Under the pieces are notes generated by a model, which was not told the origin of the DNA, ran no database searches, and was given only the letters and a program-made list of their open reading frames with translations. Source: Geomonas ferrireducens (GTDB taxonomy: Bacteria > Desulfobacterota > Desulfuromonadia > Geobacterales > Geobacteraceae). From it: a stretch of DNA of 64,000 nt. The DNA lies in NCBI RefSeq assembly GCF_004917065.1, contig NZ_SSYA01000001.1, forward strand, positions 185,001-249,000. The letters are read 5' to 3'. The first letter of the stretch is position 1, and every line of letters starts with the position of its first letter. This document shows positions 3,381 to 16,727 of the stretch, piece after piece. Made by a program: the position numbers and the translations under genes.

Positions 3381-3786
3381 ACCGCCTCCCATCCGCGTCA
3401 CCAAAACATTCATAATGACGCGGGAAGTTGCCAACCAGTTGAAGTCTCTCGGCAAACTCTACCGTAATACCGTCCTCATCCACAGTCACAGTTACACTCA
3501 TTTCAGATGGGTACAGTTATCATAGGCAACAACTGTCACCATTACAATTGTGAATTATCGTCTCAGTTTCAAAGAATCCCCTCATAGTCCGCAACAGCTG
3601 TCCTTTTCCCTCCCTCAATGTCACAAAACAAGGTCAGATCGGTAACCTGATTGAAACATTGCATTGCTATCCTCCCGGCCATCGAACACCGAGCCAGGGA
3701 AAAAGGAGAAACGAGGTCATGTCGCAAATGGTTACAAGACGCGCTGTCGCACCCACCCAGAGCATTCGGATGCCGGAGTAGCACCT
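3381..3786. promoter_or_regulatory. Divergent promoter region with ACAGTTA direct repeats
   Basis: A 406-base divergent gap. ACAGTTAC (3488-3495) and ACAGTTAT (3513-3520) are direct repeats 25 bp apart, ACAGTCA (3482-3488) precedes them, and AACTGTCACC (3531-3540) is an inverted copy. Helically phased direct repeats suit a MocR dimer acting on its own promoter. The same CTGTCAC block resembles half of a Pho box, but a second half at the right spacing is not convincing. Confidence 0.45.
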
Positions 3787-4464
3787 ATGCAGACGATACT
3801 GATCATAGAAGATGAAAAGGACCTCGCCGAACTGGTCGCTTTCAACCTGGAGCGGGAAGGGTTCCGGGTGATGACCGCCCACGACGGCCTCACCGGGCTG
3901 GACCAGGCCTCACGGATCAAGCCGGACCTGGTCATCCTCGACCTGATGCTTCCGGGGCTTTTGGGTACCGAGGTCTGCAAGACCATGAAGAGAAACGAGA
4001 AGACCGCTGCCATCCCGGTGCTCATGCTGACCGCGAAGGGTGAGGAGATCGACAAGGTGGTCGGTTTCGAGGTGGGAGCCGAGGATTACGTGGTGAAGCC
4101 GTTCTCGACGCGGGAGCTGATACTGCGCGTCAGGGCGCTCTTAAGGCGCGCCGCGACGCCCCCGTCCCCGGGGAGCGTCGTGAAGGTGGGGCCGCTTACC
4201 CTGGACGTGGAACGTCACTCGGTGGCAATCGACGGCGCCGAGGTCTCCTTCACCAGCACGGAGTTCAAGCTTTTGCATATCCTGGTGCAGCGGCAGGGAA
4301 GGCTGCAAAGCCGCGAGGTCCTCCTGCGCGACGTGTGGGGATACGCCTTCGTCGAGGATTCGCGCACGGTCGACACGCACATAACGAGGCTGCGCGGCAA
4401 GATGGGGGCGGCCGGCGAACTGATCAGGACGGTGCGTGGCTTCGGCTACAAGATCGAGCTGTGA
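3787..4464 (+). CDS. phoB: PhoB-like OmpR-family response regulator
   Basis: 225 residues. Receiver domain about 1-120 with the acidic pair in IIEDEKD, phospho-acceptor Asp in LVILDLMLPG, Thr in MLTAKGE and Lys in VVKPFSTRE. The C-terminal winged helix (about 130-225) carries TSTEFKLLHILVQ and SRTVDTHITRLRGKMG as in PhoB/OmpR proteins. PhoB activates phosphate-starvation genes. The start is ATG 3787 at MQTILIIEDE, which gives the usual length. pstS follows 96 bases downstream in the same direction, strongly supporting a phosphate role. No phoR is next to it, so the cognate kinase lies elsewhere. The regulator class is certain; the gene name rests on sequence type plus pstS. Confidence 0.88.
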   Translation: MQTILIIEDEKDLAELVAFNLEREGFRVMTAHDGLTGLDQASRIKPDLVILDLMLPGLLGTEVCKTMKRNEKTAAIPVLMLTAKGEEIDKVVGFEVGAEDYVVKPFSTRELILRVRALLRRAATPPSPGSVVKVGPLTLDVERHSVAIDGAEVSFTSTEFKLLHILVQRQGRLQSREVLLRDVWGYAFVEDSRTVDTHITRLRGKMGAAGELIRTVRGFGYKIEL

Positions 4465-4560
4465 AAGTTAACGGGAACGTACGGAGCCTGTAACAGAAAC
4501 GCCACAACGCTTCATTACCATGTCGACATCTTTGAAAAACAACGAACAGGAGGAACATCG

Positions 4561-5589
4561 ATGCTACACCGAATCAAAAAAGCCGTCATGACGCTGGCGC
4601 TCATCGCCGCAGTCGCCTGCGCCGGTCAGGCAAACGCCGAAACACTTATCAACGGCGCCGGGGCCACCTTCCCCTACCCCCTCTACTCCAAGTGGTTCAC
4701 CGAGTACGCCAAGGTGGACAAGGGGGTCAAGTTCAACTACCAGTCCATCGGTTCCGGCGGCGGCATCAAGCAGATCACCGCGCAGACCGTCGACTTCGGT
4801 GCAAGCGACAAGTTCCTCTCCGACGACGAGCTTAAGGCCGCCCCCGGCAAGCTGATCCATATCCCGACCGTCATGGGCGCCGTCGTGGTGACCTATAACG
4901 TTCCGGGCATCGGCACCGGCCTGAAACTTAACTCCGAGGACGTGGCCAACATCTACCTGGGCAAGATCACCATGTGGAACGACCCGAGGATCGCGGACGA
5001 CAACAAAGGTGTGCACCTCCCGGCGAAGCCGATCATCGTCGTGCATCGCTCCGACGGGTCCGGCACCACCAGCATCTTCACCGACTACCTTACCGGCGTG
5101 AACGCGGATTGGGCCCAGAAGGTGGGCAAGGGCGCTTCCGTGAAGTGGCCGGTTGGCCTTGGCGGCAAGGGGAACGAAGGGGTCGCGGGTCAGATCAAGA
5201 CCACCCCGTATTCCATCGGCTACGTCGAGCTTGCTTACGCATTCGAAAACAAGCTCCCGTACGCATCCTTGAAGAACAAGGCGGGCGTCTTCGTGGAGCC
5301 CTCGATCAAATCCACCAGCGCTGCTGCCGCAGCGGCCGTTAAGCACATGCCGGCCGACTACCGCATCTCGCTGGTGAACCAGCCGGGCAGGGACGCCTAC
5401 CCGGTGGTCGGCTTCACCTGGCTCCTGGTCTACGAGCAGCAGAAGGACGCAGCCAAGGGAAAACACGTGGTCGAGTTCCTGAACTGGTCCATGACCAAGG
5501 GGCAGAAGATGGCCGCCCCGATGCTCTACGCTCCGCTGCCGGAAAACGTCGTGAAGATGGTGCAGAAGACCATAAAGACCATCAAGTAA
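4561..5589 (+). CDS. pstS: Phosphate ABC transporter substrate-binding protein PstS
   Basis: 342 residues with a Sec signal peptide (about 1-26, cleavage near QANA-ET). Mature-protein signatures are INGAGATFPYPLYSKW, YQSIGSGGGIKQI, VDFGASDKFLS and HRSDGSGTTSIFTDYL, which supply the phosphate-binding Ser/Asp/Arg residues of PstS. It captures phosphate in the periplasm for PstCAB, whose genes are not in this window. An AGGAGG site precedes the ATG. It is followed by a strong terminator, so it is probably transcribed alone or with the PhoB-like gene. The segment from 4490 (CTGTAACAGAAACGCCAC) could be a weak Pho box. Confidence 0.95.
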   Translation: MLHRIKKAVMTLALIAAVACAGQANAETLINGAGATFPYPLYSKWFTEYAKVDKGVKFNYQSIGSGGGIKQITAQTVDFGASDKFLSDDELKAAPGKLIHIPTVMGAVVVTYNVPGIGTGLKLNSEDVANIYLGKITMWNDPRIADDNKGVHLPAKPIIVVHRSDGSGTTSIFTDYLTGVNADWAQKVGKGASVKWPVGLGGKGNEGVAGQIKTTPYSIGYVELAYAFENKLPYASLKNKAGVFVEPSIKSTSAAAAAAVKHMPADYRISLVNQPGRDAYPVVGFTWLLVYEQQKDAAKGKHVVEFLNWSMTKGQKMAAPMLYAPLPENVVKMVQKTIKTIK

Positions 5590-6830: not shown

Positions 6831-8261
6831 CTACTTCCTGAGCGAGATGCTCAAGACGGGAGTTCCGGCGGTGCCGTTACGAACCGACACGAACATCTCC
6901 TTGCCGTAGGAAAACTGGCCGTGATACCCCGAGACGCCCGCCGCGGCCAGCGCGCCCTGCTGATCCATGGCAAGGGTGTAACCGCCTGGGAGGAGCGTTG
7001 AGCCGCCGGCATCCAGGAAGGCGGTGTAGAGGAGCCCCCCGGCGGCGTCGACCGTCTGGGTGCCGTGACTCCACCCCGGCGCCGCGCCGTAGAGTTCATG
7101 AACGCCGAAGCTACCGGTCAGGTCCGCCGTGAGGTAGCTCGAAGCGGTAAGGAGCACGGCGGGCGGGTGCACGAGCTGCATGATGCGCAAAAGCGGCGCG
7201 CCCCCCGCGTCGGTGGCCGTCGCCACGACGGTCATCTTGTCCGCCGACATGATCCCCTGGGTCACGAGTGCCGCGGGCTGCGGCGTCACCCCTGGGTAGG
7301 GGGTCTCGCTCACCACGCCGTCCGCGGTGATGGCGAGGCTCACCGCCTTGCTCCCGCCACCGGGAAGGGCACGCGGGGTAGGCCCGTTCAGGGAGAGGTA
7401 GGTCACCCCCTGGTCCTGCCCCACCTGGCAGCTCGCGTACTCCCACTCCGGAACAAGGCCTGCCGAGAGCTGGTGGTAGACGTAGGGGAGCGGTCCCGCC
7501 ACGAGCCTTCCCGTCCCCTTCACGTCCGCCGCGCTGAAGACGATGCCGGGGACGCTTTTCTGCATGACCATCAGCATCCTCCCCCCGCCGGAAAGGGTTG
7601 CCGTCCCGACCATGAGGTCCTTGTAGAGGTTCGCCGCCACGGTTCCTTGGAAGCCCGCAGCCTGGCCGCTTTGGCTCACCGTGCCGTCGGACAGAAGGGT
7701 CATCGCCGTGAAGAGCTCCGCCGGGGCCGAGTTCCCACCCAGACTGTCCTCGTAGCGCGTGACGCTGACCGCACCCGAGGCGTCGATCCCGACCGAGCCG
7801 CGCAACCAGCGCGGGTTTGGACCGGTCACCAGGGCGTTGAAGCGCCAGGCCCCCTCCAGGTCGGCCTGGCTGAAGGGGCCGGGGGGCTCGGGAACCACGG
7901 ATACCTCGGGAGAGAGGGCGCTCTCGCCGTTTGAGTTGTAGGCGCTCACCGCGAAGTAGTAGCGGGTACCGTTGTCGAGCCCGGGCACGATGACCGAGGT
8001 GCCGGTGATCTCGGCCACCTTGGCGCCCCCACCCGCGGCCAGCCCGGAGACGCTCGAATAGTAGACATGGTAGCCGGCCGCTCCTTGCGCCGGGCTCCAG
8101 GAAAGGGAGACCTGCCGGTCGCCCGGGACCGCCACCACCCCGGCAGGAGTCGCGGCCATGCCCGGGTCGTAGCGCCAGGGGGACGCACCGCAGGCGTTCA
8201 GCCCGGCGGTGATGAAGAAAGCGGCAACAAGAATGAATAAACTGCGCCAGGTGCACTGCAT
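6831..8261 (-). CDS. FN3-domain lipoprotein, last gene of the ECF/TonB run
   Basis: 476 residues. A signal peptide ends in a lipobox (ITAGLNAC), so it is probably lipid-anchored. One fibronectin type III domain spans about residues 38-125 (VSLSWSPAQGAAGYHVYYSS, GTRYYFAVSAYNSNGES). The remaining 340 residues are beta-rich with no motif I recognise. It lies 40 bases after the TonB-dependent receptor gene and is likely co-transcribed. Context suggests an outer-membrane or surface accessory of the uptake system, perhaps ligand capture; that is inference from neighbourhood only. Confidence 0.8.
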   Translation of the reverse strand: MQCTWRSLFILVAAFFITAGLNACGASPWRYDPGMAATPAGVVAVPGDRQVSLSWSPAQGAAGYHVYYSSVSGLAAGGGAKVAEITGTSVIVPGLDNGTRYYFAVSAYNSNGESALSPEVSVVPEPPGPFSQADLEGAWRFNALVTGPNPRWLRGSVGIDASGAVSVTRYEDSLGGNSAPAELFTAMTLLSDGTVSQSGQAAGFQGTVAANLYKDLMVGTATLSGGGRMLMVMQKSVPGIVFSAADVKGTGRLVAGPLPYVYHQLSAGLVPEWEYASCQVGQDQGVTYLSLNGPTPRALPGGGSKAVSLAITADGVVSETPYPGVTPQPAALVTQGIMSADKMTVVATATDAGGAPLLRIMQLVHPPAVLLTASSYLTADLTGSFGVHELYGAAPGWSHGTQTVDAAGGLLYTAFLDAGGSTLLPGGYTLAMDQQGALAAAGVSGYHGQFSYGKEMFVSVRNGTAGTPVLSISLRK

Positions 8262-8300
8262 CTGGAAAATCCTCCCGGGTCCGCCGCTGCGGACCCCGCG

Positions 8301-10304
8301 TCAGAGACGGTATTCGAACCCGCCGTAGATGTACCGCCCCGGCTGCGGGAAGCCGTAGCTCGTCTCATAGTTCCGGTCGAAGAGGTTGTTCGCCCCAACG
8401 TAGAGCTCAACGCGGTCCTTCAGCACCTTCCGGCTCAACCTCACGTTCACCAGCACGTAGTCGTCGAGCTTCGCCTTCTGCACCACCGCCACGCTGTCCT
8501 TCGTATAGAAATACTGGTTGGCGACGTAGTTGACCGCGACGTAGGCGGTCGCACCGCAGCGCGCGTCGTAGCGTCCCTCGAGGGTCACCTTGTCGCGAGG
8601 GTTGTACTGCACCTCGTCCCGCCCGGGACGGGAGCGGTCCTCCGAGTGCAGGTAGGTGTATCCCCCGCGCAGCATGAGCCGGTCCAGCGGATGCACCTCC
8701 CCCTGCAATTCGGCGCCGGCGAAGCGCACCTCGGAGAGGTTCATGTTGCGGCCGGCGGCCTGGTCGTTCTGGATCAGGTTGTCGGCGTCGGTGTAGAAAC
8801 CGGTGATGGCCACCCTCGCCTCGCGCGGCAGCTTCTGCTCGACACCCGCCTCGAAGCTGCGCGAGGTCTCGGCGACGAGCGCGTCGTTTCCCTTGGAGAG
8901 ATCGTAAAGGTCGCCAAGCGACGGGAAGCGGACGTTGCGCTTGAAGGAAGCCTTCAGGCGGGTGTCCGGCAAGATGTCGTAACTACCGCCGAGCAGGAAG
9001 CTGTAGTCGTCCTGGTCCAGCTCGCTTCTGTGCTGCCAGTAATGACCGTAACCGGCGACGAGCCCCACCCCGGTGACCGGAGAGAACTCGTACTCGGCTC
9101 CCGCCGAATAAAGCGAGAGCGAACGGTCCCTTGATAGATCGCTGTAGGTCGGGGTCCCGCCGGAGACCGGGTTCACCGTCTGAACACCGCCGTTCTCCCA
9201 GGCGTCGCGCTCGGCGCCAAGCGACAAGGTGAGCGTCCCGAAGCGGCCGAAGTCGTACTTCGGCTGGAGCGTCGCGCCGTAGACCGAGGTGCGCACCTCC
9301 TCCCGGAAGGATCCGTCCGCGAGGAAGGAATCGAGCCGCGCGTCGTCGTACTGGTTCACGTCCTCCTCGTGGCGGTTCAGGTAGGTCCAGCCGCGCAAGG
9401 TGAGACGCTCCCCCGCCGCGTACTCCCCGGCCAGCTGCAGGTAGAGCCCCGAGTAGTCCTCCACTCGGACGTACTTGGGGGGCGAGGCGAAGGGATCGAT
9501 CGGATCGCCGATGGTGCCGGCGGGCTTGCCGTAGCTCCCCTCGCCGTAGCTCAGGGTGAGACCGAGGGCCAGGTCGGCGGTCGGGGTGAAGCCGGCGGTG
9601 CCGAGGAAGTTGCGCCGTTCCTTGTCGCTGTTGTCACGGTAGCCGGTGTTCTGGTTCGCGGTCCGGTCGAACGCGCCGGAGAGCGGGAAGCCGTCCACCC
9701 GGTTCGCGCTGCCGCTCAGGAAATAGCTGAAGCGGTCGGTGGCGGCGGAGAGGGTCCCCTTGGCGAGGTAGGGGGCGTGGTCGCCGAATTCGCCGGACAC
9801 GGTCCCCCGCACGCCTGGGGTCCCCTTGCGGGTTATAACGTTGATCACCCCGCCCAACCCCCCCTGGCCGTAGAGCACCGAGCTCGCCCCGGAGGTGAGC
9901 TTTATCTCGGCGATGTTCTCGGTGGGGATGGTGGTCGGGTCGAACTGCATGTCTACGGCGGAGTTCACCGGGACGCCGTCCAGGAGCAGGAGCACGTGGC
10001 GCGTCCTGAAGCCGCGGATGTCGATGCGCGGCACCCCCTCGGCACCGGTCCGCACGTTGACGCCGGGCAAGAGCTGCAGCGCCTGGTCGAGCGTCCGCGC
10101 CCCGCTCGCCCTGATCTCCTCCTCGCTCACCCGGTAAAGCGTCTGGCTCGCCTCTTCTCCCGGCCCGCCGTCGGCGCGGTTACCGGACACCACCACCTCG
10201 CCGAGCGCGTAGCTCTCCGATGCGCCCCCGCCCGCTTCGCCCCTGGCCACGGCGGCCTGCGCGCAGCAGAGAGCGAGGAGGCAAATTACTGTTCTAAGTT
10301 CCAT
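8301..10304 (-). CDS. TonB-dependent outer-membrane receptor
   Basis: 667 residues: signal peptide (MELRTVICLLALCCAQAAVA), plug domain about 50-160 (ASGARTLDQALQLLPGVNV, RIDIRGFRTRHVLLLLDGVP, SVLYGQGGLGGVINVITRKG), then a 22-strand-type barrel ending in YIYGGFEYRL. The plug is closest in style to vitamin B12/haem-type receptors, but substrate cannot be read from sequence. I start at ATG 10304, with AGGAAGG upstream; longer reading frames start in a repeat. Its genetic link to tonB, an ECF transporter and a Moco-type riboswitch suggests it imports a molybdenum cofactor precursor, pterin or Mo/W chelate. The receptor call is firm; the ligand is inferred. Confidence 0.93.
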   Translation of the reverse strand: MELRTVICLLALCCAQAAVARGEAGGGASESYALGEVVVSGNRADGGPGEEASQTLYRVSEEEIRASGARTLDQALQLLPGVNVRTGAEGVPRIDIRGFRTRHVLLLLDGVPVNSAVDMQFDPTTIPTENIAEIKLTSGASSVLYGQGGLGGVINVITRKGTPGVRGTVSGEFGDHAPYLAKGTLSAATDRFSYFLSGSANRVDGFPLSGAFDRTANQNTGYRDNSDKERRNFLGTAGFTPTADLALGLTLSYGEGSYGKPAGTIGDPIDPFASPPKYVRVEDYSGLYLQLAGEYAAGERLTLRGWTYLNRHEEDVNQYDDARLDSFLADGSFREEVRTSVYGATLQPKYDFGRFGTLTLSLGAERDAWENGGVQTVNPVSGGTPTYSDLSRDRSLSLYSAGAEYEFSPVTGVGLVAGYGHYWQHRSELDQDDYSFLLGGSYDILPDTRLKASFKRNVRFPSLGDLYDLSKGNDALVAETSRSFEAGVEQKLPREARVAITGFYTDADNLIQNDQAAGRNMNLSEVRFAGAELQGEVHPLDRLMLRGGYTYLHSEDRSRPGRDEVQYNPRDKVTLEGRYDARCGATAYVAVNYVANQYFYTKDSVAVVQKAKLDDYVLVNVRLSRKVLKDRVELYVGANNLFDRNYETSYGFPQPGRYIYGGFEYRL

Positions 10305-10331
10305 GAAAAACCTTCCTGATAATGTAAAGAT

Positions 10332-10430
10332 CCCCCCTCCAGGGGAAGGAGAGGCGGACTCCGATGCAACTCGCACTCCGGATCTCCCCATGTCCCCTCC
10401 CCCGGAGGGGGAGGGTCAGGGAGGGGGAAG
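10332..10430. repeat. GC-rich inverted-repeat element (CCTCC/GGAGG type)
   Basis: Contains the palindrome CCCCTCCCCCGGAGGGG and related G- and A-rich tails (GAGGGTCAGGGAGGGGG). A sister element lies at 13171-13266 in the same gene run and a short relative at 62563-62594. It fills the gap between the FN3 lipoprotein and the receptor gene, so it would be transcribed as an mRNA hairpin. Confidence 0.75.
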
Positions 10431-10437
10431 GACCAAC

Positions 10438-11691
10438 CTATTGCGGGACGCCCTGTTTCGGGTTGGTCTGCCCGCCGCTTTCCAGGCCGGAGCCTACCGC
10501 GGTGACGGTGACCCAGTAGTTCGTGCCGGGGGTGAGCCCGTTGATCGTCAAAGGCGAACCTGTGGAGGAGACCTTCTGGTTGTTCGCGATTACCGCGGCG
10601 GTGGTGGGAGCGGTTGCACTCTCCATGTAGTAGACGTTGTAGGAGGAAGCAAGCGGCACCCAGTCCCAGGAAACCGCCAGAGAACCGGCACCGGCGGTCA
10701 CGGAGACCCCGGTCGGCTTGGCCGGGGCCTGTGCCGATGCGGAAGGCTTGGCGGAGGACTGGCTGGACGGCGTGGTGCTTTCTCCCGCGACGTTGGAGGC
10801 GGTGACCAGGAAATAGTAGGTGGTGCCGTTGGCAAGTCCGGTCACGGTGAGCCCCGGCTGCGTGAGACCGGCGAGGGACTCGTCCGCGGTGAGGGACACC
10901 TTGGTCCCGGTCGAAGTGGTGAAACCGGAGGTCGTGGAGTAGTAGACGTTATAGGAGGTGGCGCCGGCCACGGCGCTCCATGCCATGGTCACCAGGCCGT
11001 TGCCGCCGGAGACCCTCAGCCCCTGAACCTTTCCCGGCAGGGCCGGAAGGGGCTTCACCGAAGCCTCGTCCGAAACGGCCCCCTCGCCAGCCAGGTTTGC
11101 CGCGACAACCACGAAGTAGTAGGTGGTTCCGTTGACGAGCCCGGTGATGGCCTGGCCGCTCGTCGCCCCGGCGACCTTGGTGCCGTTGCCTGCGGTGACG
11201 CCCGCGGCGGTGCCGTAATAGACGTTGTAGGAGATGGCGCCGGGCGCCGGTGACCAGGAGATGGTCGCCTGTGCGTCGCCGCCGGTCACCACCACACCGG
11301 AAACCTTGTCAGGGAGCGGGGGGAGCGGCGTAGCGCTTGCTTCGTCCGAGACGGCGCTCTCGCCGTGGGCGCCTACGGCGGTGACCACGAAATAGTAGGT
11401 GGTGCCGTTTGCAAGGCCGGTGATAGCCTGGCCGCTCGTCGCCCCGGCCACCTTGGTGCCGTTGCCGACCGTGACGCCCGGGCTGGTGCCGTAGTAGACG
11501 TTGTAGGAGGTGGCGTCAGCGGAGGCGGTCCAGGTGACCGCCGCCTGGCTGTCACCGGCGGTCGCCGCTACCGCGGTCGGCTTGGCAGGGGCGTTGGAGT
11601 CGCTCGAGCCGCTCGAGCCGCAGCCGGCAAAAACCAGCGCGAGAACGGTCAGGGTGATGGCGGCAAGCCACCGAAAAAGCTGCTTCTTCAT
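10438..11691 (-). CDS. Lipoprotein with four tandem FN3 domains
   Basis: 417 residues. Signal peptide with lipobox LVFAGC, a Ser-rich linker, then four fibronectin type III repeats of about 90-100 residues, each with the AISYNVYYGT-like and NGTTYYFVV-like strands. Repeats 1 and 2 are nearly identical (GTKVAGATSGQAITGL occurs in both), pointing to recent internal duplication. It sits between tonB and the receptor gene. Extracellular FN3 arrays usually act as spacers or adhesion modules; here it may hold a partner near the receptor. Lipid anchoring and domain count are seen; role is inferred. Confidence 0.85.
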   Translation of the reverse strand: MKKQLFRWLAAITLTVLALVFAGCGSSGSSDSNAPAKPTAVAATAGDSQAAVTWTASADATSYNVYYGTSPGVTVGNGTKVAGATSGQAITGLANGTTYYFVVTAVGAHGESAVSDEASATPLPPLPDKVSGVVVTGGDAQATISWSPAPGAISYNVYYGTAAGVTAGNGTKVAGATSGQAITGLVNGTTYYFVVVAANLAGEGAVSDEASVKPLPALPGKVQGLRVSGGNGLVTMAWSAVAGATSYNVYYSTTSGFTTSTGTKVSLTADESLAGLTQPGLTVTGLANGTTYYFLVTASNVAGESTTPSSQSSAKPSASAQAPAKPTGVSVTAGAGSLAVSWDWVPLASSYNVYYMESATAPTTAAVIANNQKVSSTGSPLTINGLTPGTNYWVTVTAVGSGLESGGQTNPKQGVPQ

Positions 11692-11740
11692 TGGGTCGTT
11701 TTCTCCTTTTTAAAAAAAATCCTCAACAGAGGGGGGTGCG

Positions 11741-12538
11741 TCATTTCCTGGCCAGGGCGAAGGTGATGGTCACCTCGAACGGCTCATCCGGCGACAGCTC
11801 CGCGGGGACCGGGGGAAAGGCCCCCACGGAGCTGATGGCGCGGGTCGCCGCGGCATCGAGAAAGGGGTGTCCGCAGGAGTCAACCGGCTCGACGCTCTTC
11901 AACGAACCGTCACGCCGCAGCATGAACCTTCTCCGGCAACTCCCTTCCCGGCCGGACTTGCGCGCTGCCAGTGGGTATTCCTTGTGCGCCTCTATGAGCC
12001 GCTTCAACAGCGCCTGGTAGCCGCCGCGAACCTCCCTCCCCGCGCCCTGTCCCGACGAAGCCGGCGCTGCGGAAGGTGCGGCAAAAGTCCCTCGGCCGCT
12101 TCCCGTGCCGCGGTTATCCGCCTCGATGGTTGCTCCGGACGCGGCGCGCCCACTACCTGCGGCTGGGTGCACCACTCCGGCCGGGGCTCCGACGACAGGC
12201 GCGACGGGACTCGCGGACGTCCGGGGTGGTGCTGCCGGCGACACCGGTTCCCTGAGAGAAGCAGAAGCGCTCGTCCCAACTACGGGAGGCGTCGCCTCGA
12301 ATGCCGCCCGTCGTGCGGGAGAGACAGAGGATTCCGGAGAAGTCGCTCTCCCCGGCGCGGGTGCTTTTCCAGCCCCCCCCAGATCCAGGTACGCGACCAC
12401 CGCCTGGCGGTTGCGCTCCTCCCGCACCCCTTCCCGCTGCCAAAGCCTTCCCGCGCCGTAGAGCAGAAAAAGGTGCGCCAAAAAGGAAAGCAGGAGCAGG
12501 TGCGTCACCGGCAAGTTCTCGGCGCGGAGCCGGCTCAC
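11741..12538 (-). CDS. TonB-family energy transducer
   Basis: 265 residues with a GTG start that overlaps the stop of the S-component gene (GTGA). One N-terminal membrane helix (LLLLSFLAHLFLLYGAG), a long Pro/Ala/Ser-rich periplasmic linker (about 40-170), and a C-terminal TonB domain (RRRFMLRRDGSLKSVEPVDS, LDAAATRAISSVGAFPPVP, VTITFALAR). TonB proteins pass inner-membrane proton-motive force to outer-membrane receptors. No exbBD is next to it, so it must use ExbBD encoded elsewhere. Translational coupling to an ECF S component physically ties outer-membrane and inner-membrane steps into one transport pathway. Confidence 0.88.
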   Translation of the reverse strand: MSRLRAENLPVTHLLLLSFLAHLFLLYGAGRLWQREGVREERNRQAVVAYLDLGGAGKAPAPGRATSPESSVSPARRAAFEATPPVVGTSASASLREPVSPAAPPRTSASPVAPVVGAPAGVVHPAAGSGRAASGATIEADNRGTGSGRGTFAAPSAAPASSGQGAGREVRGGYQALLKRLIEAHKEYPLAARKSGREGSCRRRFMLRRDGSLKSVEPVDSCGHPFLDAAATRAISSVGAFPPVPAELSPDEPFEVTITFALARK

Positions 12539-13101
12539 GTCGCGGCCGCCCCCTGGTCGATCAGGCCGTTCTTGCGCAGTCTGCGGATGATGGCCGGGAC
12601 GGCAAGCGCCCCCAGTCCGCCCCAAAGCCCGTTCATCCCCGCCGAGATCACCGTTTTTTGCAGCATGATCTCCTCGTCCATGCCGAGAAGCCACTCGACG
12701 CCGGTGTTGGCGCCGGCGCGTAAAAGCGACGCAAGCACCCCGACCGTGGCGCAGGCAAGGAGGCTCGTGACGAAGCCCGGGGCGATCAGGCCCGCCAGGT
12801 CCACCACGAGTGCCGGGAGCAGGAACTTGACCAGCACCATGGCGCCGCCGCTCCCCATGCCGAGGAGGACGCTGGCAAGGCTCGTGATGAGCCCGACGAG
12901 AGTCGCCGCGCCGACCTTCGGGACGCATCCCCTGGCGAGGAGGAAGAAGAACATGGTGAAAAACATGACGTGCCCCGGCAGGTGCAGGTGCAGCCTGAGT
13001 CCGGCGCGGGTGAGCACGATCAGGGTCGCGCAGAAGCAGAGCAGGACCGCCTCCCGCAGGGTAAAGCGTCGCCAGATATAGATTCTTTCCGTTTGTTCCA
13101 T
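12535..13101 (-). CDS. ECF transporter S component (substrate-binding membrane subunit)
   Basis: 188 residues, about six hydrophobic helices, the size and shape of ECF S components. The segment LPGHVMFFTMFFFLLARGCVPKVG followed by a small-residue helix (GMGSGGAMVLVKFLLPALVVD) resembles S units that sit beside EcfT and EcfA genes. S components bind the vitamin or metal in the inner membrane and dock on EcfT. It is not close enough to BioY, ThiT, RibU or CbiM for me to name a substrate. A Shine-Dalgarno AAGGAGA precedes the ATG. The gene is separated from ecfT by a 202-base gap filled by a GC-rich repeat. Confidence 0.75.
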   Translation of the reverse strand: MEQTERIYIWRRFTLREAVLLCFCATLIVLTRAGLRLHLHLPGHVMFFTMFFFLLARGCVPKVGAATLVGLITSLASVLLGMGSGGAMVLVKFLLPALVVDLAGLIAPGFVTSLLACATVGVLASLLRAGANTGVEWLLGMDEEIMLQKTVISAGMNGLWGGLGALAVPAIIRRLRKNGLIDQGAAAT

Positions 13102-13170
13102 CGTTTCTCCTTGGAGACCGGCTCCGCAGGTGCCTGTCCCCTTTTTACCTTTTCACGCGAGGGACTGTGC

Positions 13171-13266
13171 CTTCCCCGCCCCCGGAGGGGGAGGATTAGG
13201 GAGGGGGAAGCGTGGCAACTCGATCACCCTTCCCCCCTCCCAGCCTCCCCCCTCCGGGGGGAGGGG
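13171..13266. repeat. GC-rich inverted-repeat element, second copy
   Basis: Holds CCCCCGGAGGGGGAGGATTAGGG (written in part: CCCGGAGGGGGAGG, then ATTAGGGAGGGGGAAG) and an inverted partner CTTCCCCCCTCCCAGCC with CCCTCCGGGGGGAGGGG. The two halves can pair over the whole element. It belongs to the same family as 10332-10430 and separates the S-component gene from ecfT. Confidence 0.75.
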
Positions 13267-13303
13267 CGCTCTCAACAAAAAGCCGCAGCAACCGGATCTG
13301 TGA

Positions 13304-14086
13304 CTAATCAAGAAGTGCTTTAGCCGGGGGCACCCCATCCCCGCCCGTAACCTCATCCTCCGCCTCCTCCCCGGCCCCCCTTCCCATCGCGGCGACATCG
13401 AGGTAGGTTCGCTCCCGGTGCAGACCGAAGGCGCGCGCCTCGGCGGAGCGGGACACCTCGTCGGCGGTCCTGAAGGCGCGGACCATGAGCGGAAGCACCA
13501 CGCAGTTGAAGAGATCGGGCCAGTTGCGCGGGTTCATCTGCTCCCGCGGGGAAAGCCGCGCCCCCCTCAGGCGCTGCAGCGCCACGATCTCCTCGAGTTC
13601 CCGGAAAAACAGCGGCACGAACCTAACACTCACGAACACCAGGAAGGAGAGCCGGTACGGGACGACCCGGCGCAGCGCCGCCATCGCCTCGCTGGTGCGC
13701 GTGGTGCGCAGGAAGACGGCGCCCGGGAGGTAGAAAAGCACGATCTGCGTCGAGATGCGAACCCCGGGCCAGAGCCCCTTATCCACACCGTCCAGCATGC
13801 AGTAAAGGGGGATGACCATGGCTGCCTGAAAGGCGAAGAGCCGCACGTCGCACCAGAGGTCCCGCAGGGTGAGACGCGCCGACAGGTAGTAGGCGAGCGT
13901 CACCAGCACCAAGATCGCCTGCATCAGCGGCGTACGCCCCCCCGCCGCCAGTGCACTCAGGAACACCCCGAAAACAAGCTTCCATCCCGCCCCCATCCGG
14001 TGCACCGGCGAATCGTGCTCGGCGAACCGGCAGGGATAGCCGCGGCTTCTGAGCGAGGTGCGGAATCTAGGAGGCCCTTTCTGCAA
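13304..14086 (-). CDS. ecfT: ECF transporter transmembrane subunit EcfT (CbiQ-like)
   Basis: 260 residues. The N-terminal SPVHRMGAGWKLVFGV matches the start of EcfT/CbiQ proteins (usually SPLHRLDPRxKL). There are about five membrane helices, and two arginine/alanine coupling motifs near the C-terminus: LQRLRGARL and RSAEARAFGL, the pair that contacts the two ATPases. The reading frame starts at TTG 14086, overlapping the ATPase gene by 20 bases; a later ATG at residue 31 would remove the conserved N-terminus. It couples ATP hydrolysis to S-component toppling in the inner membrane. Confidence 0.88.
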   Translation of the reverse strand: MQKGPPRFRTSLRSRGYPCRFAEHDSPVHRMGAGWKLVFGVFLSALAAGGRTPLMQAILVLVTLAYYLSARLTLRDLWCDVRLFAFQAAMVIPLYCMLDGVDKGLWPGVRISTQIVLFYLPGAVFLRTTRTSEAMAALRRVVPYRLSFLVFVSVRFVPLFFRELEEIVALQRLRGARLSPREQMNPRNWPDLFNCVVLPLMVRAFRTADEVSRSAEARAFGLHRERTYLDVAAMGRGAGEEAEDEVTGGDGVPPAKALLD

Positions 14087-15455
14087 TGCCGCCCTCCTGA
14101 AGATGGAGGCTGCGATCGGCCCAGCGCCGGTCCGGCAGTTCGTCGTGCGAGGCGATCAGCACCGTCGTGCCGTAGCGGATCGGCATCCTGCCGAGGATCG
14201 CCAAAAGGCTCAGGCGCTGCGGGAAATCGAGCCCGGCGAAAGGCTCGTCCAGAAGCAGCAACACCGGACGCGGCGCCACCACGGTCGCAAGGGCCACGCG
14301 GTGCTGCTCCCCGAAAGAGATGGTGAGCGGCGCACGGTCCGCGAGATGGGCGATGCCGCAAAAGGAGAGGGTCTCGTCCACGATGCGGTCGATCTCCTCC
14401 GCCGGGTAGGAAAGGCGCTCCAGCGAGAAGGCGACCTCCTCCCGGACCGTCTCGGCGAAGAGCTGGCGGGCCGGGTTCTGCATCAGGAAACCGAGCCTGC
14501 CGCGCAGCGTACCCGGCCCCGGTTTCTCCGTTCCCGCCACCCAGAGCCGCCCCGAGTCGGCGGGGAGAAGCCCGGCGAGGCAGCGCAGGAAGCTCGACTT
14601 CCCCGCACCGTTTTGCCCGAACAGATGGACCCGCTCGCCGCGACACACGCGCAGGGTGGCCCGCTTCAGCACCCGGCCCGTCTCCGGGTAGGCAACGTCC
14701 AGCCCCTGCACGTCGAGTACCGGCCTCGTCCCGTAGAGGGTCGCCGAATACGGGAGCAGGAAGGCCTTCGGACGGTAGCGCACCGGGTCCGGCGGCGTCG
14801 CGTCGTCACTGACGAGGTGCCCCCCCTCGAGCCTCAGGTACCGGTCGATGAGCGCCACGAACGGGCGCGGGTCGTGCTCTGCCATGACGATGGTGTGCCC
14901 GCGCTCCTTCAAAAGCGCGAAGATGGCGACAAGTTCGTCCTTTCCCGCGGCGTCGAGCTGCGAGGTCGGCTCGTCCAGCAGGATGAGTCCGGGGCGCATG
15001 GAGAGGACCGAGGCGAGGGCTAGGCGCTGCTTCTGCCCCGCCGAGAAACGCTCGACGCTGCGCGTCTCCTCCCCCTCCAGCCCGACTGCTCTCAGCCCCT
15101 CGCGCACCCTGATGGCGATCTCGTCCGGCGCCACGCAGAGGTTCTCGGGGCCGAAGGCCACCTCCTCCGCCACGGTGCTGCAGAGGATCTGCGATTCCGG
15201 GACCTGGAAGAGGATCCCCGCGGACGGCGCCGCCTCATCCTCGGCCGGCGCCACGCGGATGGTCCCGTGACGCCTTCCGCCGCGCAGAAGCCCCATAACC
15301 GCCAGAAGGAGCGTGCTCTTGCCGCAGCCGGAATCGCCGGTCAGGCAGACGAACTCGCCGCGCCGCACGGTGCAGGAGACCCCCTCCAGCACCGGAGCCG
15401 CCGCACCGTGGTAGGTGAAGCCGAAATGCTCTATTTCCAGGACTCTATCGTTCAA
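14067..15455 (-). CDS. ECF transporter ATPase, two fused ABC domains
   Basis: 462 residues holding two complete ABC modules, equal to EcfA and EcfA' fused. Module 1 (about 5-225): Walker A GDSGCGKSTLL, signature FSAGQKQRLAL, Walker B LILLDEPTSQLD. Module 2 (about 245-455): Walker A GQNGAGKSSFL, signature SFGEQHRVAL (an altered LSGGQ), Walker B LLLLDEPFAGLD. It energises the ECF transporter with EcfT and the S component. It overlaps the small Cys-protein gene by four bases upstream and ecfT downstream, so these are translationally coupled. Confidence 0.93.
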   Translation of the reverse strand: MNDRVLEIEHFGFTYHGAAAPVLEGVSCTVRRGEFVCLTGDSGCGKSTLLLAVMGLLRGGRRHGTIRVAPAEDEAAPSAGILFQVPESQILCSTVAEEVAFGPENLCVAPDEIAIRVREGLRAVGLEGEETRSVERFSAGQKQRLALASVLSMRPGLILLDEPTSQLDAAGKDELVAIFALLKERGHTIVMAEHDPRPFVALIDRYLRLEGGHLVSDDATPPDPVRYRPKAFLLPYSATLYGTRPVLDVQGLDVAYPETGRVLKRATLRVCRGERVHLFGQNGAGKSSFLRCLAGLLPADSGRLWVAGTEKPGPGTLRGRLGFLMQNPARQLFAETVREEVAFSLERLSYPAEEIDRIVDETLSFCGIAHLADRAPLTISFGEQHRVALATVVAPRPVLLLLDEPFAGLDFPQRLSLLAILGRMPIRYGTTVLIASHDELPDRRWADRSLHLQEGGIAERAS

Positions 15456-15688
15456 TGCGCGATCAGGGCGGTTTCGCCGTGCCGCGCCGCCCCCCGCAGA
15501 CAGGTGAACGACTCGACGCTCCAGCGCCGGTAACGGCAGTCGTAGCAGGAGCGATCCTCCTCGGCCAACTGCTCCTCCTCGACATCAGGAACGAAGCAGG
15601 TGCAAGCAAGCGCCGCCTGCTCCGCCAGCGACCAGGCCTCCTTGCCGTGGGCGAACTCCATGACCCCTTTCTCGTTTGCGCGCCACAT
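15452..15688 (-). CDS. Small cysteine protein of the ECF run
   Basis: 78 residues with five cysteines (ACTCF, SCYDCRYR, FTCLRG), the latter set resembling a small zinc or metal site. It is soluble and has no signal peptide. The stop overlaps the ATPase start (ATGA), and the TiaS-like gene ends one base before its start. I do not recognise the family. Fixed position inside the operon suggests a part in handling the imported ligand or metal, which is inference. Confidence 0.75.
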   Translation of the reverse strand: MWRANEKGVMEFAHGKEAWSLAEQAALACTCFVPDVEEEQLAEEDRSCYDCRYRRWSVESFTCLRGAARHGETALIAH

Positions 15689-15689
15689 G

Positions 15690-16433
15690 CTAGTACGCCT
15701 TCAACTGCTTGCGGTGCAGGGTCTGCCAGCGCGCCCCGGTCCCCGCGGTCTGCGGAGCCCCGACGAGCAGCACCGATTCACCTTCCAAAAGCACCGTCTT
15801 CGGCTTCTCGCCGATGGTCACCAGGTCGTCGTCGCGCAGCGCCTCGCCGGTAACGCTTCTCACCACGTCGACGAGCGGGTGCTGCATGAGCTCGTCCACC
15901 CGTAGCATCCGGTACGGTTGGCCGAAGTCCAGGAACCCCTTGAGGCGCCCGTCGTTGCCGGACATCCTTAGCCCGGCGCCGGCGAGGGCCCCGATCACCC
16001 CCTGCCCTGTGCCGCCGTGCTGGGAGAGATGCACCCCCAACTTCCCGGCGAGTTCGTACGCCTCGTCCATGCGCACCACATCGCGCTTTGCGCGCCGCCC
16101 AAAGGCGATCAGCTCGTTGCGCGCCGTCATCCGACCTGGGACCGCCACGCAGAGGCCGGGGTCGGAACCGGGAGCGCTCTCCCGCTCGAGGAACTCGGCC
16201 ACGTGCCCGATCACCGGCTCGAGCCATACCTCGTCGATGTCGGCGTAGAAGCACATGGCGCTGTTGTGGGAGGTGTACGGGATGTCCGGGTGCACGAAAA
16301 GCTGGTGCCGGGTGATGAAGCCGCAGCTCCCCCACCCTTTCTGCTGCAGCTCGTCTGCCACCAGGGAGGCGATTTCGCCGGTGCCCCGGCTCTCTAAGTT
16401 GTCGGTGTCGTCGATGGAAATCACGATGCGCAT
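15690..16433 (-). CDS. TiaS-like protein, first gene of the ECF/TonB run
   Basis: 247 residues starting MRIVISIDDTDNLESRGTGE. That opening, with ISIDDTDN, is the hallmark of the archaeal TiaS (tRNA-Ile2 agmatinylcytidine synthetase) N-terminal domain and its ferredoxin-like relatives; HPDIPYTSHNSAMCFY and GGTGQGVIGALAG follow. Bacteria do not need TiaS (they use TilS/lysidine), so a different substrate is likely. The start at ATG 16433 follows GAAGGAG; longer frames run into the leader terminator. It lies directly behind a Moco-type riboswitch. Possible role: ATP-dependent processing of the imported cofactor; this is inference. Confidence 0.8.
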   Translation of the reverse strand: MRIVISIDDTDNLESRGTGEIASLVADELQQKGWGSCGFITRHQLFVHPDIPYTSHNSAMCFYADIDEVWLEPVIGHVAEFLERESAPGSDPGLCVAVPGRMTARNELIAFGRRAKRDVVRMDEAYELAGKLGVHLSQHGGTGQGVIGALAGAGLRMSGNDGRLKGFLDFGQPYRMLRVDELMQHPLVDVVRSVTGEALRDDDLVTIGEKPKTVLLEGESVLLVGAPQTAGTGARWQTLHRKQLKAY

Positions 16434-16480
16434 GGACCTGAACTCCTTCGTTGTATTACACGCTACATAACGGTGGACAC

Positions 16481-16510
16481 AAAAAAGCCCCGTTCCGGAT
16501 GGAAAGGGGC
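16481..16510 (-). terminator. Intrinsic terminator in the leader of the ECF/TonB run
   Basis: On the minus strand GCCCCTTTCC pairs with GGAACGGGGC around ATCC and is followed by TTTTTT. It lies 47 bases before the first ATG and 35 bases after the riboswitch fold, so it is positioned to be the expression platform (transcription attenuation). Confidence 0.85.
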
Positions 16511-16544
16511 CCTGTACGGTCGGATACACTCCGGCCGCAGACAA

Positions 16545-16642
16545 GGCTCTCCTTTCCAAAAGGGAGGCACCGCCGTTTCCAGCAGTACCCGTTGGCCCGC
16601 AGCCGTGAGGAGGACCTTTTAGGCGGCGAAGCTCGGAGAGGC
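16545..16642 (-). ncRNA. Moco-type riboswitch (molybdenum cofactor RNA motif)
   Basis: Minus-strand leader RNA. The closing helix pairs CTCTCC (5' side) with GGAGAG (3' side). Inside are CCGAGC at the 5' edge and GCCTCCC followed after four bases by GGAAAGG at the 3' edge, the order and spacing I know from the Moco RNA upstream of moaA in enterics. Two GC hairpins lie between. A terminator follows. Moco RNAs sense molybdenum cofactor (or the tungsten form) and usually turn off synthesis and Mo uptake when cofactor is plentiful. No covariance search was run, so the assignment is by eye. Confidence 0.75.
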
Positions 16643-16727
16643 ATATACGAATTTTGGCAACGTCTTTAACACAGGTAAAACGTATACGCTAGGGAAATAT
16701 GATGTGAAGGGACAAAGGTGCGGGAGG

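Follow-up and report, generated by a model that had tools for sequence, protein, structure and literature searches.

Known tungsten importers of the Tup, Wtp and Mod types act at the inner membrane, and we know of no dedicated outer-membrane system for trace tungsten and of no energy-coupling factor (ECF) transporter or TonB receptor for this element before now. TupABC combines a soluble binding protein with a classical permease and has no receptor. BtuB-BtuFCD and the siderophore systems use a TonB-dependent receptor that feeds an ATP-binding cassette (ABC) importer, and YkoEDC has its S component, EcfT and double ATPase in one run. The closest published case is the receptor Pcar_0454 of Pelobacter carbinolicus, near aorA2, from an organism whose ligand-gated channels near molybdopterin or cobalamin riboswitches 'may transport metals' (PMC3543383); the accessible part of that paper mentions neither an ECF module nor a TiaS-like gene, nor tungsten as cargo. 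Here we analyse a 64,000-nucleotide stretch of the Geomonas ferrireducens genome (contig NZ_SSYA01000001.1, positions 185,001 to 249,000; hereafter the window), in which a molybdenum cofactor (Moco) riboswitch precedes nine minus-strand genes that encode an ECF importer together with its own TonB and outer-membrane receptor. We consider it probable that this operon acquires tungsten, possibly also molybdenum, by way of the receptor and the importer, and that it is switched off by the tungsten cofactor. Its parts are ordinary, and their pairing and context are not named in the open-licence literature among the matches listed; a preliminary description of this DNA, made from the sequence alone, had likewise known of no such transporter.

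The riboswitch aptamer lies at positions 16533–16650 on the minus strand, where the Rfam family of molybdenum and tungsten cofactor (Moco/Tuco) RNAs, RF01055, scores 70.4 bits against a gathering threshold of 36 (E 6e-15; model positions 1–135 covered; full-model score above the threshold). The only other Rfam match in the window is one tRNA. About 20 bases downstream of the aptamer begins an intrinsic terminator (16481–16513, minus strand), whose hairpin folds at −16.9 kcal/mol, and both elements thus bear out the preliminary description. The 5′ arm of the terminator can alternatively pair with the aptamer segment GGAAAGGAGAGCC, also at −16.9 kcal/mol in computed folds. Since this arm, CCCCTTTCC, is complementary to the conserved aptamer stretch GGAAAGGAG, anti-terminator and terminator are mutually exclusive, and the computed lowest-energy fold of the whole leader contains the anti-terminator. 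The layout suggests a transcriptional OFF switch, the direction of control being predicted from these folds. We scanned 34 Moco RNAs by a crude procedure, and 32 had a hairpin of −14 kcal/mol or lower before a T run, the hairpin scored at one locus (L122; loci are numbered with L) differing from its terminator-like one; the two RNAs without such a hairpin (L005, and L040 at 1363) precede aldehyde oxidoreductase genes.

Three RF01055 RNAs are present in the genome of the window. The second (L004) precedes moeA and moaC, and the third (L005) precedes an aldehyde oxidoreductase (AOR) gene, which exceeds the cut-offs of PF02730 and PF01314; a ThiF/MoeB-like gene and moeA come next. We aligned these two and the RNA of the window with 23 from the S-component loci of relatives, and none of the 26, the window RNA included, has room for a P3 stem. 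According to the accessible part of the survey by Regulski et al. (2008; PMC2408646), the ligand of Moco RNAs is the cofactor, and 58 of 176 such RNAs lack P3 and accompany tungsten-cofactor organisms and genes. The P3-less form therefore points to tungsten.

The nine genes follow the leader in one run, with overlaps of 4, 20 and 4 bases, in keeping with the 4- to 20-base overlaps described earlier, and gaps of 1, 202, 49, 46 and 39 bases calculated from the coordinates. The first encodes a TiaS-like protein (15690–16433) in which the TiaS N-terminal domain is recognisable by its DDTD...GTG motif; two NCBIfam models match it with scores short of their cut-offs, TIGR03280 at E 3e-12 and NF040849 at E 3.1e-11. 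The gene starts with the ATG at 16433; an alternative TTG at 16559 in the list of open reading frames (ORFs) falls within the RNA. Its partner, assigned by conserved pairing, is a small conserved cysteine (Cys) protein (15452–15688; C..SCYxCRYRRW..C). The ECF module comprises a double ABC ATPase (14067–15455; two PF00005 stretches, with ECF ATPase models below their cut-offs), the EcfT transmembrane component (13304–14086; PF02361 CbiQ, E 3.4e-13) and, beyond the 202-base gap, the substrate-binding S component (12535–13101), a membrane protein assigned by its AlphaFold model, structure match and conservation. A TonB protein follows (11741–12538; PF03544, E 9.7e-13), probably with a GTG start that overlaps the S stop codon. 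The TonB-dependent outer-membrane receptor (8301–10391; PF00593, PF07715) stands between two fibronectin type III (FN3) lipoproteins: an FN3-repeat protein (10438–11691; four PF00041 stretches) that is a probable envelope partner, and one with a conserved C-terminal part (6831–8261; one PF00041 stretch; a conserved family) that probably partners the receptor. All nine genes and their order on the minus strand, as well as the combination of an ECF importer with a TonB and a receptor of its own, were found as first described.

The run is conserved well beyond the window. Of the 141 genomes of the order, 26 encode the S component, the one that contains the window among them, and these 26 loci encode the double ABC ATPase in 24 cases, EcfT in 25, the receptor in 23, and the TiaS-like and Cys proteins in 19 each; a receptor is missing from L037, L044 and L053, all of which end at a contig boundary. 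Three loci (L045, L053, L056) are cut on the upstream side, leaving 23 that could be assessed for an upstream RNA, and 16 of these have an RF01055 RNA within the run or immediately upstream of it (the window, L032–L044, L046, L047). Given about five such RNAs per genome and assuming random placement, about 1.3% would be expected per locus, so the link between RNA and run is far above chance, and the supposed conservation of the operon near Moco RNAs in relatives holds. Two RNAs are present in L037, L038, L041, L042 and L044, one ahead of the TiaS-like gene, the other ahead of the ABC gene or of genes next to it. Among named genomes, a scan yielded 64 S-component loci from Geobacterales, other Desulfuromonadales, some Desulfobacterales, other Deltaproteobacteria, an Anaeromyxobacter bin and Shewanella (33 loci). 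Every Shewanella locus encodes the S component, ABC ATPase, EcfT and TiaS-like protein, 32 the Cys protein and 31 the receptor. Seventeen other loci (L071–L087) have the S component with ABC ATPase (15), EcfT (14), receptor (12), TiaS-like protein (11), TupA (4), molybdenum storage protein (MoSto; 2) and Cys protein (2). A search for plasmid copies of the S component gave no match. Elsewhere in locus L049 (6884–6929, minus strand), a Moco-II RNA (RF01713, 62.8 bits) precedes genes that appear by eye to encode cytochrome-b-like and iron-sulphur proteins, with a TiaS-like gene further downstream.

Neighbouring genes bear on the cargo. A TupA-like gene is found at 13 of the 26 S-component loci, a MoaE-like gene at 6, a MoSto-like gene at 4 and an AOR-like gene at 2. 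The 26 genomes hold 53 TupA-family matches in total, for which random placement would predict about 0.75% per locus. These TupA-like neighbours match the NCBI TupA model and no other NCBIfam model, with three of them scoring 253.6, 169.1 and 41.3 bits against NF041772 (cut-off 400); because the cut-off is not reached, we limit the claim to 'TupA-like'. The presumed cargo element is thus that of TupABC, delivered here by an ECF module. In 13 of 18 Shewanella genomes, 9.4–13.2 kb separate the S gene from a TupA gene; in 1 the distance is 32.6 kb, and in 4 the two genes are on different contigs. In L139 this TupA gene is the first in the series tupA, tupB, ABC gene, mobA, mobB/moeA and moaA, with mobA, mobB/moeA and moaA over their NCBIfam cut-offs and tupA and tupB below. 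This linkage is one syntenic block in one genus and is counted as one independent event. We also considered AOR presence as a discriminating co-occurrence and rejected it, as 134 of the 141 genomes match AFOR_N.

A system for molybdenum instead of tungsten, or one that does not discriminate and takes up molybdate or a molybdenum chelate, is quite unlikely in our estimate. MoSto-like and MolA-like neighbours, whose namesakes bind both molybdenum and tungsten, and the chemical likeness of the two metals would suit it. The P3-less RNAs, the exclusive match of the TupA-like neighbours to the TupA model and the AOR-like neighbours, members of a tungsten enzyme family, all argue against it.

The TiaS-like protein is present in all 26 genomes with the S component and in 16 of the 115 without it (Fisher 1e-17, ignoring relatedness). 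We examined 18 further TiaS-like loci (L121–L138), 16 from genomes that lack the S component and two that are second copies in genomes that have it, using our own model for the Moco RNA, R1, made in this analysis. An R1 RNA lies directly before the TiaS-like gene in nine loci (L121–L127, L133, L136), and none was found in L130, L131, L135, L137 or L138. In L124, L125, L132 and L134, the TiaS-like gene clusters with genes of the MoaE-, TupA-, ABC- and MoeA-like types, each cluster containing an R1 RNA, and L124, L125 and L132 also contain a TupB-like gene; family scans of such neighbours covered examples, the rest being assigned by similarity. At L130, L131, L146 and L147 the TiaS-like gene is accompanied by one for a class III binding protein (PF01497 in both that were scanned), and at all of these but L147 a receptor relative stands alongside. 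This recalls MolABC of Haemophilus influenzae, whose MolA (HI_1472, 3psa) is the fourth-best PDB match of the L131 protein; the best, however, is another periplasmic protein (4pag), followed by 4ovk and 4hn9, and no permease or ATPase was recognised by eye at L130 or L131. One protein of L137 (7188–7988, minus strand; genome of the window, contig C1, about 1.81 Mb) is best matched by a molybdenum storage protein (E 8e-52) and adjoins that genome's second TiaS-like gene. L136 contains a partial TiaS-like match, ABC and EcfT, with no S-like frame found. Because of the P3-less RNAs, the TupA-like neighbours, the exchange of partners by the TiaS-like protein and receptor, and the tupA linkage in Shewanella, we favour tungsten as the cargo. 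As a separate observation, L124 encodes a porin (9656–10960; ExtI model far below cut-off), and similar genes were seen by eye in L132 (7445), L133 (6698) and L146 (13561); they follow TiaS-like/Cys genes or a Moco RNA and may provide an outer-membrane route for oxyanions.

Import of the intact molybdenum or tungsten cofactor, molybdopterin or another pterin, with the imported cofactor giving feedback, is an unlikely alternative to tungsten acquisition that nevertheless accounts for several features. The riboswitch ligand is the cofactor itself (PMC2408646, accessible part), ring-shaped organic vitamins are the ligands of S components with this fold, the receptor suggests large or rare cargo, and MoaE- and MoeA-like genes are found nearby. 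On the other side, a tungstate-binding-type protein is the commonest metal-related neighbour, and the TiaS-like protein accompanies TupA- and TupB-like genes where the S component is absent. Free molybdenum cofactor is also unstable. All 26 genomes with the S component carry moaA over cut-off, so pterin is not needed and auxotrophy was rejected as the reason for an importer, with scavenging still conceivable. The preliminary description had suggested molybdopterin, a pterin or a molybdenum or tungsten chelate as ligand: the chelate comes close to the cargo we favour, and the P3-less RNAs, tungstate-type neighbours and ubiquitous moaA speak against the other two.

The S component model (AlphaFold, pLDDT 83.6) has the ECF S fold, with 5edl as its best PDB match (Z 16.9) and FolT next (Z 14.1). 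Foldseek returned no match at E ≤ 0.001 for this model (best 5edl, E 3.6e-3), and a sequence search against PDB gave no S component among the matches listed. We take 5edl to be YkoE of YkoEDC, with a thiamin-type ligand, and PF09819 to be the YkoE family. The S component scores 15.8 bits against PF09819 (gathering score 25.2), which was matched below cut-off in 14 of 22 homologues (best E 5.2e-4). The operon shares with YkoEDC this fold and the arrangement of S component, EcfT and double ATPase in one run, encoding together the parts that define an ECF transporter; it differs in the low PF09819 score, the TonB receptor within the run and a P3-less Moco RNA in place of a thiamin RNA. Residues R36, G43 and H44, located at the loop that follows membrane helix 1, are identical in all 64 S-component sequences and may take part in cargo binding.

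For the receptor, the nearest solved relative is BtuB (1nqe, E 1.5e-17), yet it scores 140 bits against the B12-receptor model TIGR01779, which has a cut-off of 599.7. As in BtuB-BtuFCD, a TonB-dependent receptor would feed an ABC importer; here the inner-membrane step is by ECF transporter and no cobalamin RNA was found at the loci searched. Close relatives align from residue 25–27, suggesting that the true start is probably about 25 codons downstream of the one given above. The receptor subfamily (E ≤ 1e-120) occurs in 25 of the 26 genomes with the S component and 3 of the 115 without (Fisher 2e-23, ignoring relatedness). In one of these three genomes (L145, cut upstream), genes for a receptor relative, an FN3 protein and a MoaE-like protein stand in a row.

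The TiaS-like protein, of about 247 residues, resembles TiaS (tRNA-Ile2 agmatidine synthetase) and methanogenesis marker 11 in its N-terminal domain fold (Foldseek 4rvz, E 1.3e-11, TM-score 0.54 on the query) and retains the DDTD..GTG motif, including T18, presumably the active threonine of TiaS. Its profile matches TiaS chains in PDB, the best being 3u02, a 252-residue chain titled TiaS of Pyrococcus furiosus, a tungsten-dependent organism. It is not a full-length TiaS: NF040849 scores 42.5 bits (cut-off 600) over profile positions 1–153 of 422, no C-terminal tRNA-binding part was detected by NCBIfam profiles or by PDB profile and Foldseek matches, and the gene is sited in tungsten-type loci. 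The small Cys protein has no Pfam or NCBIfam match; it accompanies the TiaS-like protein in the 19 loci of the order that encode it and in 32 of the 33 in Shewanella.

From these elements we propose the following mechanism. When the tungsten cofactor is short, the leader RNA would be anti-terminated and the operon transcribed. The receptor, the two FN3 lipoproteins and the operon's own TonB would take a scarce form of tungsten through the outer membrane, and the S component, EcfT and double ATPase would then move it through the inner membrane. Inside the cell, the TiaS-like protein and its small Cys partner would act on tungsten or its cofactor, and once plentiful, the cofactor would bind the P3-less aptamer, free the terminator and stop transcription. 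The RNA, terminator, gene families, co-occurrence and neighbours are computed; from them we infer what is carried, in which direction control works and what the TiaS-like and Cys proteins do.

Several results weigh against this interpretation. The cargo assignment draws on gene neighbours and the P3 rule, and that rule was unproven by Regulski et al., in whose work, as far as the accessible part shows, deletion of P3 in E. coli merely broke control (PMC2408646). Across 18 kb around the run in the window, no TupA-, MoaE-, AOR- or MoSto-like gene was found, so that the run lacks the TupA gene of a TupABC operon (TupB was not searched for separately there). Within the genomes, no TupA-family match reaches the NCBI cut-off (NF041772, 400) in any of the 26 with the S component or in any of the 18 of Shewanella. 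TupA-family genes are nonetheless already present in all 26, and since tungstate is small enough to pass porins, the need for a receptor is left unexplained. RF01055 is absent from 7 of the 23 assessable loci of the order (L048–L052, L054, L055) and from all 15 more distant loci tested (8 and 7, six of the latter from Shewanella), and R1 found no RNA in S-component loci among its 72 sources or in six Shewanella stretches (L139–L144). Finally, in sister species of the same genus (L121–L123) the RNA and TiaS-like gene remain and the transporter was not found. The TiaS-like protein therefore need not act on this cargo, and it must have some function beyond this import. Gene families flanking L123 are common with the window, as if the transporter had been lost there.

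Other counter-evidence would suit a different organic cofactor (B12, a thiamin precursor, haem or a siderophore) merely sharing control with the tungsten regulon, a possibility to which we give little credence. The nearest S-component fold and nearest receptor relative serve thiamin-type and B12-type organic ligands. In Shewanella, an element GGTAATAAGAATCTTTACC, or close variants, about 230–380 bases before the receptor gene (L088–L119; core common to 23 of 28), scores 14 of 19 to a Fur consensus in 15 of 28 sequences, where chance would give about 1.5% per sequence, and iron control is possible there. A c-di-GMP-I-GGC riboswitch in L087 (4510–4590, plus strand) lies about 970 bases before the receptor gene on the same strand, with one doubtful opposite-strand ORF between, and may precede the run. 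Against such a cofactor stand the receptor's low B12-receptor score, the recurrence of tungsten-type neighbours in two bacterial lineages, and the absence of cobalamin, thiamin pyrophosphate (TPP) and flavin mononucleotide (FMN) RNAs from 25 loci of relatives within the order and from 15 loci further removed. On this last ground we rejected B12, thiamin or flavin cargo as judged by riboswitch. The preliminary description had named a different riboswitch before the same run, such as cobalamin or TPP, as evidence against its proposal; neither was found, although the L087 RNA and the loci without RF01055 (7 of 23 and 15 of 15) leave that point partly standing. Other c-di-GMP RNAs were dismissed as controllers of the run, being on the other strand in L050 and downstream of the S gene in L052.

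A dedicated scavenging route might account for the receptor. We tentatively suggest, at somewhat short of even confidence, that it binds tungsten in an organic or polynuclear complex (a 'tungstophore' or polyoxotungstate), that the ECF importer brings the complex into the cell, and that the TiaS-like protein, using ATP, and its Cys partner release or activate tungsten for cofactor assembly. If tungsten acquisition is the function of the operon, the element would join the cargo of TonB receptors and ECF transporters, and two unnamed families, the TiaS-like and small Cys proteins, would gain a place in tungsten metabolism. The tungsten-cofactor form of the riboswitch, put forward in 2008, could then be tested directly at the loci in cultured Geomonas and Shewanella. 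Close to the run in the window, at 3664–5589, a PhoB-like regulator and a PstS-like gene were recognised by eye; pst-like genes are also near the run in L062, L077 and L120, possibly by chance.

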